A stretch of DNA of 64,000 nucleotides from an uncultured Prevotellaceae bacterium (lineage in GTDB: Bacteria; Bacteroidota; Bacteroidia; Bacteroidales; Bacteroidaceae), in the NCBI GenBank assembly GCA_900318995.1, contig ONMR01000010.1, positions 1-64,000 of the forward strand, in the 5' to 3' direction. Below are positions 27,648 to 39,944 of the stretch, in pieces. A program made the translations under genes and the position numbers. Under the pieces are notes generated by a model, which was given only the letters and a program-made list of their open reading frames with translations, did not search any database and had not been told where the DNA came from. Numbering within the stretch: the first letter of the stretch is position 1; each line of letters starts with the position of its first letter.

Positions 27648-29159
27648 ATGGCAGATTCCAGGACAAGAACCCGCAGTACGCGCACCAATACCGATGGCAT
27701 AGTACTCAATCACCTTCAGCCCCAGGCTCTGGAGCTTGAAGAGGCCGTGATTGGCGCATTGATGATTGAGCAGGATGCATTCCCCAAGGTAAGTGATATA
27801 GTAAAGAAGGAGTCATTCTACGATCACCGCCATCAGGTGATTTATGAGGCTGTGGCAAATCTGTCACTCAATCAGCGTCCTATAGATATTCTGACGGTTA
27901 CCGAGCAGCTCAAGAGCAACGGCACCCTGGATGAGGCCGGCGGCCCGCTCTATGTAACGCAGCTGGCAGGTAAGGTTACATCATCGGCACATATAGAGTA
28001 TCACGCCCGTATCATTGCCCAAAAGGCCATGGCCCGTGAACTTATTACATTTACAAGTGAGATCCAGACCGAGGCTTTTGATGATACTACCGATATCTCC
28101 GAACTTCTGGGTGAGGCCGAGAACAAGCTGTTCCAGATTGCACACCGCAACGTCAAGAAAGACTTTGCATCGATTGATGTGGTGCTGCAGGAGTCTGTAA
28201 ACCGCATACGTACCGCCGCACAGAGGGCTGAGGGCATGAGCGGACTGGCCAGCGGATTCCGTGACCTTGATAATATCACATCGGGCTGGCAGAAATCAGA
28301 CCTTATAATCCTGGCTGCGCGACCTGCTATGGGTAAGACCGCATTCGCACTCTCCATGGCCAAGAACATAGCCGTGAACAATCAGCATCCGGTGGCTCTG
28401 TTCTCACTTGAAATGAGTAATGTGCAGCTGGTTAACCGTCTGATATCCAGCGTTTGCGAGATCCCGGGCAATAAGCTGCGTGACGGACGTCTTGCTCCGT
28501 ATGAGTGGCAGGTGCTGGACAGCAAGATCAACGCCCTGCAGAGTGCTCCCATCTATCTGGATGATACTCCGTCACTCTCCATCACCGAGTTCCGCACCAA
28601 GGCAATCCGTCTCAAGCAGGAGCATCAGGTGGAGCTTATAATAATTGACTACCTGCAGCTTATGAACGCAAGCGGTATCCGGTTCGGTAACCGTCAGGAG
28701 GAGATAAGCACCATATCCCGTAACCTTAAGGGCATTGCCAAGGAACTGGATATTCCCATCATAGCGCTGTCACAGCTTAACCGTGGTGTCGAGGGTCGTG
28801 AGGGCTATGAGGGCAAGCGACCGCAGTTGAGTGACTTGCGTGAATCTGGTGCCATTGAGCAGGATGCCGATATAGTTTGCTTCATCCATCGCCCGGAGTA
28901 CTACAAGATCTACGAGGACAACAACCACAATGACCTGCACGGCATAGCCGAGATCATCATCGCCAAGCACCGTAACGGCGGAGTGGGTGATGTACGTCTG
29001 TCATTCCGCAGCGACCTGGCACTCTTTGATAACATCGGCACCGGGGAGTCTGTAGCCGGAGGCCGTAAGGGCAGTGTCAAACGTTCCAAAATGAATGATG
29101 AGTCCATGCCTGCCGATCCGCTTGATTCCGCCCCCGACATGGGTGACGCTCCGTTCTGA
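27648..29159 (+). CDS. dnaB: Replicative DNA helicase
   Basis: 503 residues. The N-terminal DnaB domain (about 24-125; LELEEAVIGALMIEQDAF, HQVIYEAVANL) is followed by the RecA-like helicase domain with Walker A in ARPAMGKTAFALSMA (about 225), Walker B in LIIIDYLQLM, and SRNLKGIAKELDIPIIALSQLNRGVE. It unwinds DNA at the replication fork as a hexamer. The length and motif order are normal; no intein was seen. The folded repeat element begins three bases after its stop codon. Confidence 0.96.
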   Translation: MADSRTRTRSTRTNTDGIVLNHLQPQALELEEAVIGALMIEQDAFPKVSDIVKKESFYDHRHQVIYEAVANLSLNQRPIDILTVTEQLKSNGTLDEAGGPLYVTQLAGKVTSSAHIEYHARIIAQKAMARELITFTSEIQTEAFDDTTDISELLGEAENKLFQIAHRNVKKDFASIDVVLQESVNRIRTAAQRAEGMSGLASGFRDLDNITSGWQKSDLIILAARPAMGKTAFALSMAKNIAVNNQHPVALFSLEMSNVQLVNRLISSVCEIPGNKLRDGRLAPYEWQVLDSKINALQSAPIYLDDTPSLSITEFRTKAIRLKQEHQVELIIIDYLQLMNASGIRFGNRQEEISTISRNLKGIAKELDIPIIALSQLNRGVEGREGYEGKRPQLSDLRESGAIEQDADIVCFIHRPEYYKIYEDNNHNDLHGIAEIIIAKHRNGGVGDVRLSFRSDLALFDNIGTGESVAGGRKGSVKRSKMNDESMPADPLDSAPDMGDAPF

Positions 29160-29161
29160 CG

Positions 29162-29402
29162 GAGCCGGTTCCTCCCGTGTAAATTTTGGGGTATAGGTAT
29201 AGGAAACCATAGCCGCCCGTGGGTTTGTGAACCGACGAACGAAGAGAGAGTAGAGAAAGCTAGCTTACTCTACCGAACGAGGAGGAGGTCTAGAACGTAG
29301 TTCTTAACGGGAGGGGCCCGCTCCGAAGGAGTGGGAGGGATAGCGCGAAGCGCGTAGTTTCAGATACCTATACCCCAAAATTTACACGGGAGGAATCGGC
29401 TC
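29162..29402. ncRNA. Candidate structured RNA or hairpin element, copy 1
   Basis: A 241-base element fills the space after dnaB. Its outer arms (29162-29200 and 29364-29402) pair over 39 bases with a single mismatch, which is a G-U pair if read as RNA. The 163-base core begins AGGAAACCATAGCCGCCCG and ends GCGCGAAGCGCGTAGTTTCAG. GAAAC pairs with GTTTC inside the arms, CCCGT with ACGGG, GTAGAG with CTCTAC, CTCC-GAA-GGAG and GCGC-GAA-GCGC form small hairpins. The core blocks recur in the copy at 39664-39944. The strand is not fixed by the data; the plus direction would put it in the dnaB transcript. Confidence 0.6.
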
Positions 29403-29419
29403 TATTATGTTCTTTTTTG

Positions 29420-29428
29420 TACCTTTGC
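29420..29428 (+). promoter_or_regulatory. -7 box for pheT
   Basis: TACCTTTGC, 24 bases before the ATG at 29453 and 17 bases after the end of the folded element. Confidence 0.7.
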
Positions 29429-29452
29429 AGTTTGAAAAAGAAATAGTGTTTT

Positions 29453-31948
29453 ATGAACGTTTCATATAAGTGGCTCAAGGAGTATGTTGACTTTGATCTG
29501 ACCCCTGATGAGGTGGCTGCAGCCCTTACATCGGTAGGTCTCGAGGTCGATGGAGTAGAGGAGGTTCAGTCTGTCAAGGGCGGACTCAAGGATATTGTTG
29601 TAGGCGAGGTCCTCACATGCGTGGAACATCCCAATTCGGACCATCTGCATGTGACCACTGTCAACCAGGGCAGCGGCGATCCCGTGCAGATAGTATGCGG
29701 TGCCCCCAACGTGGCTGCCGGCCAGAAGGTGGCGGTTGCTACCATCGGCGCCAAGATCTATGAGGGCGATGAGAGCTTTACCATCAAGCCTTCAAAACTG
29801 CGTGGCGTAGAGTCATTCGGAATGCTCTGCTCCGAGAAGGAACTTGGTCTTGGTAATGACCACTCCGGTATCATGGTTCTTCCGGCCGATGCCGTTCCCG
29901 GCACTCCTGCTGCCGAATATTTCCACCTGGAGTCAGATTACGTGATAGAAGTGGATATCACCCCTAACCACTCCGATGCATGCTCACACTGGGGCGTTGC
30001 CCGTGATTTCTACGCATGGCTGCTCCAGAACGGTTACAAGACCGCTCTGCATCGGCCTGACTGCGAGGCCTTCAAGGTTGACAACCAGGACCTCAAGATT
30101 GATATTGACGTTCAGAATACCGAGGCTTGCCCACGTTATGCAGGCGTAAGCATCAAGGGTGTCACTGTTAAGGAGAGTCCCGACTGGCTTAAGAACAAGC
30201 TTACGGCCATCGGACTTCATCCTATCAACAACATTGTAGATATTACCAACTACATACTTTTTGCATACGGCCAGCCGCTGCACAGCTTTGATGCCGATAA
30301 GATAAAGGGAGGCAAGGTGGTTGTAAAGACCATGCCGGAGGGCACTCCGTTCGTAACTCTGGACGGCGTGGAGCGCAAGCTCTCGGAGCGTGACCTTATG
30401 ATATGCAACACCGTGGATCCCATGTGTATGGGCGGCGTGTTCGGCGGTCTGGATTCGGGCATATCGGACTCAACCAGGAACGTGTTCCTGGAGAGCGCAT
30501 ACTTCCATCCCACATGGATCCGCAAGAGCGCACGCCGTCATCAACTCAGCACCGATGCTTCGTTCCGTTTTGAGCGCGGTATTGATCCCAACGGTACAAT
30601 TTATGCACTCAAGCAGGCTGCAATGCTGGTCAAGGAACTGGCCGGCGGTACCATTTCAATGGATATCAAGGATGTTTATCCTTCCAAGATAGAGAACTTC
30701 AAGATTGACTTTGAGTTTGACTATGCAGACCGTCTTATCGGCAAGCAGCTTGACCGCAAGGTCATGAAGAGCATTGTGGAGAACCTGGGCATTACAGTTG
30801 AGTCTTTTGATGAAAAGACCGGAATGAAGCTCTCCGTTCCTCCTTTCCGCGTGGATGTACAGCATCAGTGTGATGTGGTGGAGGAGATTCTCCGTATCTA
30901 CGGCTACAACAATATAGATTTTGACAAGTCAGTCAAGTCAAGCCTGACCGTTCAGGGCGATGTGGACCGTTCGCATAAACTGCAGGATCTGGTATCTGAG
31001 CAGCTGGTAGGATGCGGATTCAATGAGATCCTGAACAACTCGCTTACCCGCGCCGCATATTATGACGGTCTGGAGTGCTGCCCGCCTGAGAGGCTGGTTC
31101 ATGTAATAAATCCGCTTAGTGCCGACCTTAACGTACTGCGTGAGAATCTGGTATTCGGCGGATTGGAGAGCCTGTCACACAATATACGCCGTCAGAGTGC
31201 AGACCTCAGGTTCTTTGAGTTCGGTAAGTGCTACTATTTTGATGCCGCCAAGCGTGAGGCTCTCAATGAACCCGGCAAGGACGGTAACCCTCAGAACCCG
31301 CTGCGTGCATATTCTGAAGACTATCATCTGGGCTTGTGGATTACCGGCCAGCGCGTATCGGGCTCTTGGGCTCATGCCGATGAGAAGAGCTCTGTATATG
31401 AGCTCAAGGCTTACGTAGAGAACGTGTTCAGGCGCGTAGGTCTGGTATCGGGCAACATTCAGATAGAGGAGTTTGAGAATGGCGTTTACAGTTGCGGATT
31501 GCGCTATAAGCTGCGTTCAGGCAAGACGGTTGCCGAACTTGGTCTGGTTAGCCGCGCATTGCTCAAGCTGACGGATGTGGAGCAGCCTGTCTACTACGCC
31601 GATATCAACTGGGATGAGCTGCTCAAGGCTACCCGCAAGGTAAAGGTGAGCTATGCCGAGCTGCCCAAGTATCCGGCCGTACGCCGTGACCTGGCTTTGC
31701 TGGTTGACAGGACAGTCAAGTTCGTTGATATAGAGAAACTGGCTTATCAGACTGAGAGCAAGATTCTTAAGGAGGTTACCCTGTTTGATGTCTACGAGGG
31801 AAAGAACCTGCTGCCGGGCAAGAAGAGTTACGCAGTAAGTTTCCTGCTTCAGGATGAGAGCCAGACACTTAACGATGCCCGCATAGAGAAGGTTATGAAT
31901 AACATGATAGCCGCAATGCAGAACAAACTTGGGGCACAACTCAGATAA
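29453..31948 (+). CDS. pheT: Phenylalanine-tRNA ligase beta subunit
   Basis: 831 residues, long bacterial form. In order: start MNVSYKWLKEYVDFDLTPDEVA, tRNA-binding OB fold (about 40-150; HPNSDHLHVTTVNQG, QIVCGAPNVAAGQKV), B3/B4 editing region (about 210-390; YAGVSIKGV, INNIVDITNYILFAYGQPLHSFDADKI), B5 DNA-binding-like domain (about 405-480), the inactive synthetase core, and the anticodon-binding FDX-ACB domain at the end (YAELPKYPAVRRDLALLVD). With PheS it charges tRNA-Phe. yebC follows 20 bases later. Confidence 0.97.
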   Translation: MNVSYKWLKEYVDFDLTPDEVAAALTSVGLEVDGVEEVQSVKGGLKDIVVGEVLTCVEHPNSDHLHVTTVNQGSGDPVQIVCGAPNVAAGQKVAVATIGAKIYEGDESFTIKPSKLRGVESFGMLCSEKELGLGNDHSGIMVLPADAVPGTPAAEYFHLESDYVIEVDITPNHSDACSHWGVARDFYAWLLQNGYKTALHRPDCEAFKVDNQDLKIDIDVQNTEACPRYAGVSIKGVTVKESPDWLKNKLTAIGLHPINNIVDITNYILFAYGQPLHSFDADKIKGGKVVVKTMPEGTPFVTLDGVERKLSERDLMICNTVDPMCMGGVFGGLDSGISDSTRNVFLESAYFHPTWIRKSARRHQLSTDASFRFERGIDPNGTIYALKQAAMLVKELAGGTISMDIKDVYPSKIENFKIDFEFDYADRLIGKQLDRKVMKSIVENLGITVESFDEKTGMKLSVPPFRVDVQHQCDVVEEILRIYGYNNIDFDKSVKSSLTVQGDVDRSHKLQDLVSEQLVGCGFNEILNNSLTRAAYYDGLECCPPERLVHVINPLSADLNVLRENLVFGGLESLSHNIRRQSADLRFFEFGKCYYFDAAKREALNEPGKDGNPQNPLRAYSEDYHLGLWITGQRVSGSWAHADEKSSVYELKAYVENVFRRVGLVSGNIQIEEFENGVYSCGLRYKLRSGKTVAELGLVSRALLKLTDVEQPVYYADINWDELLKATRKVKVSYAELPKYPAVRRDLALLVDRTVKFVDIEKLAYQTESKILKEVTLFDVYEGKNLLPGKKSYAVSFLLQDESQTLNDARIEKVMNNMIAAMQNKLGAQLR

Positions 31949-39663: not shown

Positions 39664-39944
39664 GGACACAAAATGAAAGGTTCTATCTGTGCTTCTTTTG
39701 ATAATATTCCAAGGTGCACAGAACTTTTGAGGTATCGGTATCGGAAACCATGGCCGCCCGTGGGCTTGTGAACGGGAGGGGCCCGCAGCACAAGAAGATG
39801 TCCTGGAAGGTAGGAGTTTACTCATGCCTTTCAGGACGTCTTGTTGGGATGTGGGAGGGATAGCGCGAAGCGCGTAGTTTCAGATACTGATACCTCAAAA
39901 GTTCTCTTGGAAAGAAGCACAGATAGAACCTTCCATTTGTGTCC
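39664..39944. ncRNA. Candidate structured RNA or hairpin element, copy 2
   Basis: A 281-base element fills the space between convergent lepA and the acyl-CoA synthetase gene. The left arm runs 39664-39742 and the right arm 39883-39944; they pair almost fully, with two unpaired bulges (about 10 and 6 bases) on the left side. The arms differ in sequence from those of copy 1, except for the inner TTTTGAGGTATCGGTATC/GATACTGATACCTCAAAA, where bases changed on both sides so pairing is kept. The 140-base core shares GGAAACCAT-GCCGCCCGTGGG, GGGAGGGGCCCGC and GGGAGGGATAGCGCGAAGCG with copy 1. Extra hairpins sit at different spots: here an 18-base-pair arm (about 39795-39843) replaces the small CTCC-GAA-GGAG. 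Confidence 0.6.

Follow-up and report, generated by a model that had tools for sequence, protein, structure and literature searches.

The window analyzed here, a stretch of 64,000 nucleotides from an uncultured Prevotellaceae bacterium (contig ONMR01000010.1), harbors two copies of a folded element. Copy 1 (29162–29402) is situated between dnaB and pheT, and copy 2 (39664–39944) between lepA and the convergent gene of an AMP-binding enzyme, the genes being identified by their Pfam domains. Both copies are near-perfect foldbacks. As the preliminary description had proposed, copy 1 forms a single fold, whose 39 outer pairs include one G-U, at −129.2 kcal/mol (z −13.1) against a mean of −72.5 (sd 4.3) for its shuffled sequences, and copy 2 is likewise a foldback (−159.7, z −17.1). 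The same description had placed the first fold in a 241-base space after dnaB; 241 bases is indeed the length of the fold, whereas the gap separating the dnaB stop (29159) from the pheT start (29453) measures 293 bases. A run of T residues is present ∼10 bases past the arm of copy 1.

Anatomy of the two copies

All parts of both copies were assigned on the plus strand. The fold of copy 1 is closed by a stem, P1, whose 46-nt 5′ arm (29162–29207) is 93% complementary to the 3′ arm (29357–29402), the latter being placed by the fold and arm complementarity. Inside the stem lies a hand-placed pseudoknot part (29211–29225), resting on covariation over copies and consisting of S1 AGCC (29211–29214), the S2 5′ strand CCCGT (29216–29220), and S1′ GGTT (29222–29225). 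It is followed by an optional inserted domain (29231–29306), which is missing at the same site in a related genome (G029, locus L027/L040), by S2′ ACGGG with the joint AGGGG (29307–29316, from comparison of copies), by the hairpin P3 with a C-GAA-G triloop (29317–29335), and by the joint AGGGATA, the hairpin P4 (29343–29353), and the joint GTA (together 29336–29356), the parts from P3 onward being supported by comparison and covariation. In copy 2, the 5′ arm of P1 (39664–39748; fold and arm comparison) is REP-like in its outer part. The pseudoknot and the joint AGGGG occupy 39752–39781, with S1 at 39752–39755, S2 at 39757–39761, S1′ at 39763–39766, and S2′ at 39772–39776; these were also placed by hand, and S1/S1′ covary over copies. 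A long-form P3 (39782–39855) and the joint AGGGATA, P4 (39863–39873), and the joint GTA (together 39856–39876) were placed by fold and comparison, and the 3′ arm (39877–39944) by fold and arm complementarity.

The paired changes between the two copies reported earlier, GGGG/CCCC against GAGG/CCTC and TATAGG/CCTATA against TATCGG/CTGATA, are present, the second version of the latter including a G-U. Hairpins of unequal length do occupy matching places: P3 measures 19 nt in copy 1 but 74 nt in copy 2. Copy 1 also has an extra domain of ∼76 nt within the pseudoknot. A 22-base core signature matched twice in the window and not once in 100 shuffles, and a 29-base signature matched six times in the own genome and not at all when read backwards. 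The element had been left unplaced in Rfam, and a search with Rfam 15 agreed: the window gave no hit at the gathering threshold, and a lax scan of four loci (E up to 5) gave two weak hits, none on the element, so that a known RNA family was rejected.

The window also contains two 79-nt palindromic repeats (127–205 and 891–969; TGACGCAAAGGGG...GCGTCA), 92% identical and belonging to another hairpin family, and an inverted repeat whose 24-bp arms match perfectly around a 95-base loop (14308–14331/14427–14450).

A conserved pseudoknotted core

Each copy carries a core of ∼90 nt at the tip of the long stem P1. The order of its parts, derived from 12 short and 24 diverse copies, is the P1 5′ arm, CRT, S1 (four pairs), one base, the S2 5′ strand CCCNN, S1′, five to six bases ending in A, S2′ NNGGG, AGGGG, P3, AGGGATA, P4, GTA, and the P1 3′ arm. 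S1 and S2 are interlocked and thus form an H-type pseudoknot, a feature beyond those in the preliminary description. P3 exists in short and long forms, and in some copies a domain of ∼76 nt precedes S2′. P4 is usual, but is missing from some distant copies. The joints AGGGG and AGGGATA are fixed, and GTA was found in 190 of 199 copies by a parser that admitted only GTA or GAA. These 199 unique copies were parsed from 313 anchors, with 67 unparsed and the remainder duplicates, by a procedure that by design favors pairing in S1, S2, P4, and inner P1. Searches of individual loci covered 56 chosen from L001–L121 and all 100 of L123–L222.

In an alignment of 24 copies, 96.4% of the cells were paired as compared to 67.7% after shuffling, and the covariation score was 0.754 as compared to 0.190, with none of 500 shuffles as high; the signal disappeared once the partners were slid. 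The 25 sequences chosen for it, 24 of which were aligned, came from a set of 92 in which P1 had 11 or more of its 14 pairs and P4 at least three; the covariation of P1 and P4 is therefore biased upward. Across 188 unique cores, 746 of 752 S1 cells (99.2%) were paired in 20 different S1/S1′ combinations, whereas permuted strands with a best-offset search gave at most 78.3%. Much of the apparent covariation of the arms could also be made by homogenization of the arms at the DNA level, since the arms reach into coding ends. As arm pairing is thus ambiguous, the evidence that the structure is under selection comes from the pseudoknot, P3, P4, and the one-sided wobble described below. Comparison of the copies indicates that the core structure of one strand is under selection, and the shuffle and permutation controls bear out the conserved, covarying one-strand structure first noticed in two copies.

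Distribution in the Bacteroidales

The element family is common to many gut and rumen Bacteroidales. A search for further copies in this order had been suggested, and model R1 found them: 322 matches (E up to 1e-4) in 33 of 37 genus genomes, with up to 38 in one genome, those of the own genome being at separate places. Scans of more than 40 genomes used strict filters by which weak copies are lost, and in such scans a strict pattern was found in 22 of 200 genomes, all from one genus, a family scan was positive in 16 of 251 genomes (15 in the genus and one other), and model R2 matched 6 of 393 genomes of the order, i.e., the own genome and five of the 392 others, from families f9 (two), f29, f74, and f108. 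In the phylum sample, R2 matched only the own genome (1 of 395; none of 394 others). A shorter pattern matched at least 119 stretches of a named genome collection, and the 80 titles listed for it are all Bacteroidales, Bacteroidia, or Bacteroidaceae metagenome-assembled genomes; the listed carriers include Candidatus Coprenecus avistercoris, which is placed in the Rikenellaceae by NCBI. Phages, plasmids, and viral contigs gave no match to the element. Our literature search found nothing like it, which does not prove its absence from print. The unnamed family is new and is order-wide but patchy in its distribution.

Genomic context and signs of mobility

For the analysis of gene context, 186 of 207 copies were kept; 8 of these were located inside a large ORF and another 21 at the edge of a locus. 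Among the 157 classed copies, 61 were flanked by convergent, 85 by tandem, and 11 by divergent genes, the excess of convergent sites being relative to general expectation rather than to an intergenic baseline of the genus. The copies are mostly 3′ of genes, and the orientation of tandem copies to their genes is even (42 vs 43).

No ORF-sized insert was found in the core, the two halves of which lay within 90 bases of each other at 217 of 227 5′-half anchors. At 8 anchors there was no downstream 3′ half in the locus, and at 2 it was more than 1.7 kb away; these 10 proved to be variant, broken, or differently ended elements with no gene, and an autonomous form carrying an ORF between its two halves was rejected. 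An IS200/IS605 element was rejected as well, since no transposase gene was present inside the cores of the 227 anchors and no neighbor family recurred. Among the ORFs within 2.5 kb at 119 loci, no driver gene beside the core was found, the largest cluster comprising only 7 loci; by sequence, its members look like ABC transporters. No mobilizing enzyme was found, either among these neighboring ORFs or in the comparison with the RAYT genes of the 37 genus genomes, and no insertion junction or target duplication could be defined at three sites inspected by eye.

In genome G447, one 5′ arm is common to eight places and the 3′ arm to seven, the eighth running off its contig, so that the arms can travel with the core. 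A second sub-family adjoins several of these places in reverse, forming composite arrays. Among the copies listed, the inner arms in the genus are variations on one theme, AGAACTTTTGGGGTATCGG and its relatives. A given intergenic site may be filled by the element in one sister species and by REP-like palindromes or palindromes of quite another kind in others, or it may be empty. By eye, a copy at the lepA site of G029 (L071) was apparently lost by deletion between two CTAT repeats, with half of the left REP-like arm remaining. A second large foldback with a structured-looking interior and no Rfam hit was observed at the lepA site of G007 (L083) and the nfo site of G029 (L384).

Turnover of the arms and the nfo-araC site

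Comparison of copy 1 with its G029 counterpart (flank 99% identical) showed that one of 28 inner arm pairs was changed on both sides, and that the whole optional domain was present in one and absent from the other. Copies with similar flanks formed 79 pairs in the same orientation and 37 flipped pairs; these are not independent, and as similarity was judged by flank BLAST alone, some may have a repeat in common and not the site itself. In 42 of the 79 same-orientation pairs the arms were comparable, and their 1169 arm pairs contained 35 double and 42 single changes, whereas fewer than 3 doubles are expected from independent change; in the other 37 pairs, the arms were more divergent.

At the nfo site, 7 of 30 loci carry the element, reversed in L371, L374, and L379 and forward in L372, L373, L377, and L386, and arms of the same kind surround another structured core in L384. 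Both genes at this site, nfo and araC, have their ends within arm sequence. Of the 22 nfo loci without the element, 10 show the simple nfo ending ...[LFM]E*, the other endings being varied (e.g., ...LEQ* in L381). The nfo gene ends in ...EK* or ...QK* in L371–L374, and keeps ...LE* in L377, L379, and L386. An exactly mirrored sequence extends from the final codons and stop of nfo and of araC into the stem in L372 (24 bases) and L373 (38 bases). L371 and L374 show an exact mirror of 21 bases within the stem, and a shorter mirror covers their stop codons. From these sequences, we infer that the araC end was probably copied to nfo. Replication template switching, as described in yeast, leaves arm homogenization and spacer inversion as its two marks (PMC8604942). 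The nfo-araC site is a natural record of arm copying that reaches protein ends, and long hairpin arms can thus show paired changes without any selection acting on an RNA.

Single-stranded DNA or RNA

Wobble pairs were counted on the strand as written in 151 copies out of 155 kept from 194 model hits (antisense and duplicate hits and those with no core anchor being dropped). With same-context repeats removed, G-U exceeded A-C by 66:25 beyond arm pair 13 (p 2e-5) and by 39:1 at arm pairs 10–12. The wobble in S1 was 58:2, with 51 cases from the single form GGCC/GGCT and 7:2 without it. A palindrome acting only as double-stranded DNA should show G-T and A-C equally often, and the G-U excess therefore implies that one strand matters, as RNA or as single-stranded DNA. 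Since similar sites carry the core in either orientation, the wobble would be poorly explained by a bias between the strands in replication or transcription.

GNA triloops close P4 in 159 of 199 copies (28 of 56 distinct hairpins) and the short P3 in 84 of 154 copies (27 of 80 distinct), while UNCG loops were found 0 times in P4 and once in the short P3, and GNRA loops twice and once. GNA and GNNA loops on G-C stems give exceptionally stable DNA hairpins (PMC4686876), and the argument for DNA rests on this source because the Vienna energy sets, for RNA or DNA, gave no useful ranking of triloops. A conserved G-U in P3 (158 of 199 copies) and CUNG loops in 13 of 80 distinct short P3 hairpins suit RNA.

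An alternative is that the element works as a structured RNA, either in trans or at the 3′ ends of transcripts (for termination, for protection of the mRNA, or as a small RNA), and was spread by an unrelated repeat mechanism. This would account for a one-strand pseudoknot with G-U wobbles, for the position mostly behind genes, and for the observation by eye that several related species have, where copy 1 lies, a hairpin and then a T run ahead of pheT. However, the even orientation at tandem genes speaks against a cis-acting RNA, as transcription from the upstream gene would yield the wrong strand of about half of the tandem copies. Conservation is also lacking in the arms, and hence in any promoter located there, and a scan of 29100–29500 found no terminator, with a limit to loops of 3–8 that would miss this shape. 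On balance, such an RNA is rather unlikely.

Comparison with known repeat systems

REPINs are similarly small, non-autonomous, palindromic, extragenic repeats with many copies per genome, and REPINs or REP doublets are predicted to form hairpins in single-stranded DNA or mRNA (PMC3116915). REP-like units also flank some copies of the present element. A REPIN has two inverted REP units around a spacer; among 149 copies examined here, 24 had a REP-like unit at either side and 14 at one side only. In contrast to REPINs, the element has a conserved, pseudoknotted core of ∼90 nt, copy-specific arms, and no link to RAYT in the genus. Movement of a REPIN-type element by the RAYT (Y1) transposase of the same genome would be in keeping with the REP-like flanks and with the single RAYT-like Y1 transposase gene of the own genome (L122 1099–1896, G000:C6), which lies between GATACAAAAGGGGACAG-type palindromes, yet 111 of the 149 copies have no REP-like neighbor. 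Counting only matches over the cut-off, Y1/RAYT was found in 23 of the 37 genus genomes, and 13 of the 14 without a match carry copies, these being draft genomes from which genes may be missing; G014, G024, and G031 present the reverse case, a Y1 match with no copies. Copy number was unrelated to RAYT presence (Mann–Whitney p 0.88). RAYT presence does not track the copies in these genomes, the role of RAYT as driver is not supported, and movement by this transposase appears improbable. A REP of the GTAG type was also rejected because the GTA joint lies inside, between P4 and P1, whereas by definition GTAG stands at one end of the palindrome (PMC3733652).

The STAXI motif is alike in having a pseudoknot, in that a role as single-stranded DNA was considered, and in the use of loop type as an argument, there toward RNA; it has frequent UUCG loops, occurs in tandem repeats, and lies near DNA-handling genes (PMC2864571). 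The present element differs in having mostly GNA loops, with UNCG nearly absent, and no neighbor family above 7 of 119 loci.

Bacterial MITEs and interspersed mosaic elements are non-coding and dispersed, with inverted arms and composite arrays, and the element shares all of these, the arrays in G447. Unlike MITEs, it has no terminal inverted repeat common to all copies, no target duplication was seen, and its conserved part is the tip rather than the ends. The element works like a REPIN or MITE, yet by the presence test used here it is not a member of the RAYT group.

A probable family of mobile palindromes

Based on sequence comparison, the element is probably (with a likelihood of roughly 60%) a family of small, non-autonomous mobile palindromes of Bacteroidales with a pseudoknotted core. 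This reading follows from the many unrelated loci, the lack of an ORF, the location behind genes, the inversion of the core, and the arms that change in concert, and its odds are carried by the pseudoknot, the arm wobble, and the distribution. The preliminary description had offered a mobile hairpin as its alternative, and the many loci, inverted cores, and changing arms favor that option. That the copies are ordinary palindromes or bidirectional terminators, alike by arm correction alone and with a functionless core, would fit the unrelated palindromes at the same sites in sister species and the concerted change of the arms, but is highly improbable, as the pseudoknot and the fixed joints are found again in different families of the order, arm correction does not make an H-type pseudoknot covary, and the S1 pairing and covariation score contradict it unless the parsing misleads.

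For a mobile palindrome, the folded strand may serve as the handle, through which an enzyme supplied in trans would copy or move the element; replication template switching between the arms could then homogenize, lengthen, and flip it. The handle would be folded single-stranded DNA or RNA, with a slight lean toward DNA. More tentatively, the family may possibly constitute a new mobile class whose sole cargo is its folded strand, with a single-stranded DNA pseudoknot as the handle for a trans-acting enzyme and with arms that replication template switching would build and renew from any adjoining sequence, thereby rewriting the last codons of the neighboring genes.

Dispersed bacterial palindromes are usually plain hairpins. 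Here, by contrast, a conserved pseudoknot common to families of an order tips ever-changing arms. If the fold is a recognition handle, it would link nucleic-acid structure to mobility without any coding part.
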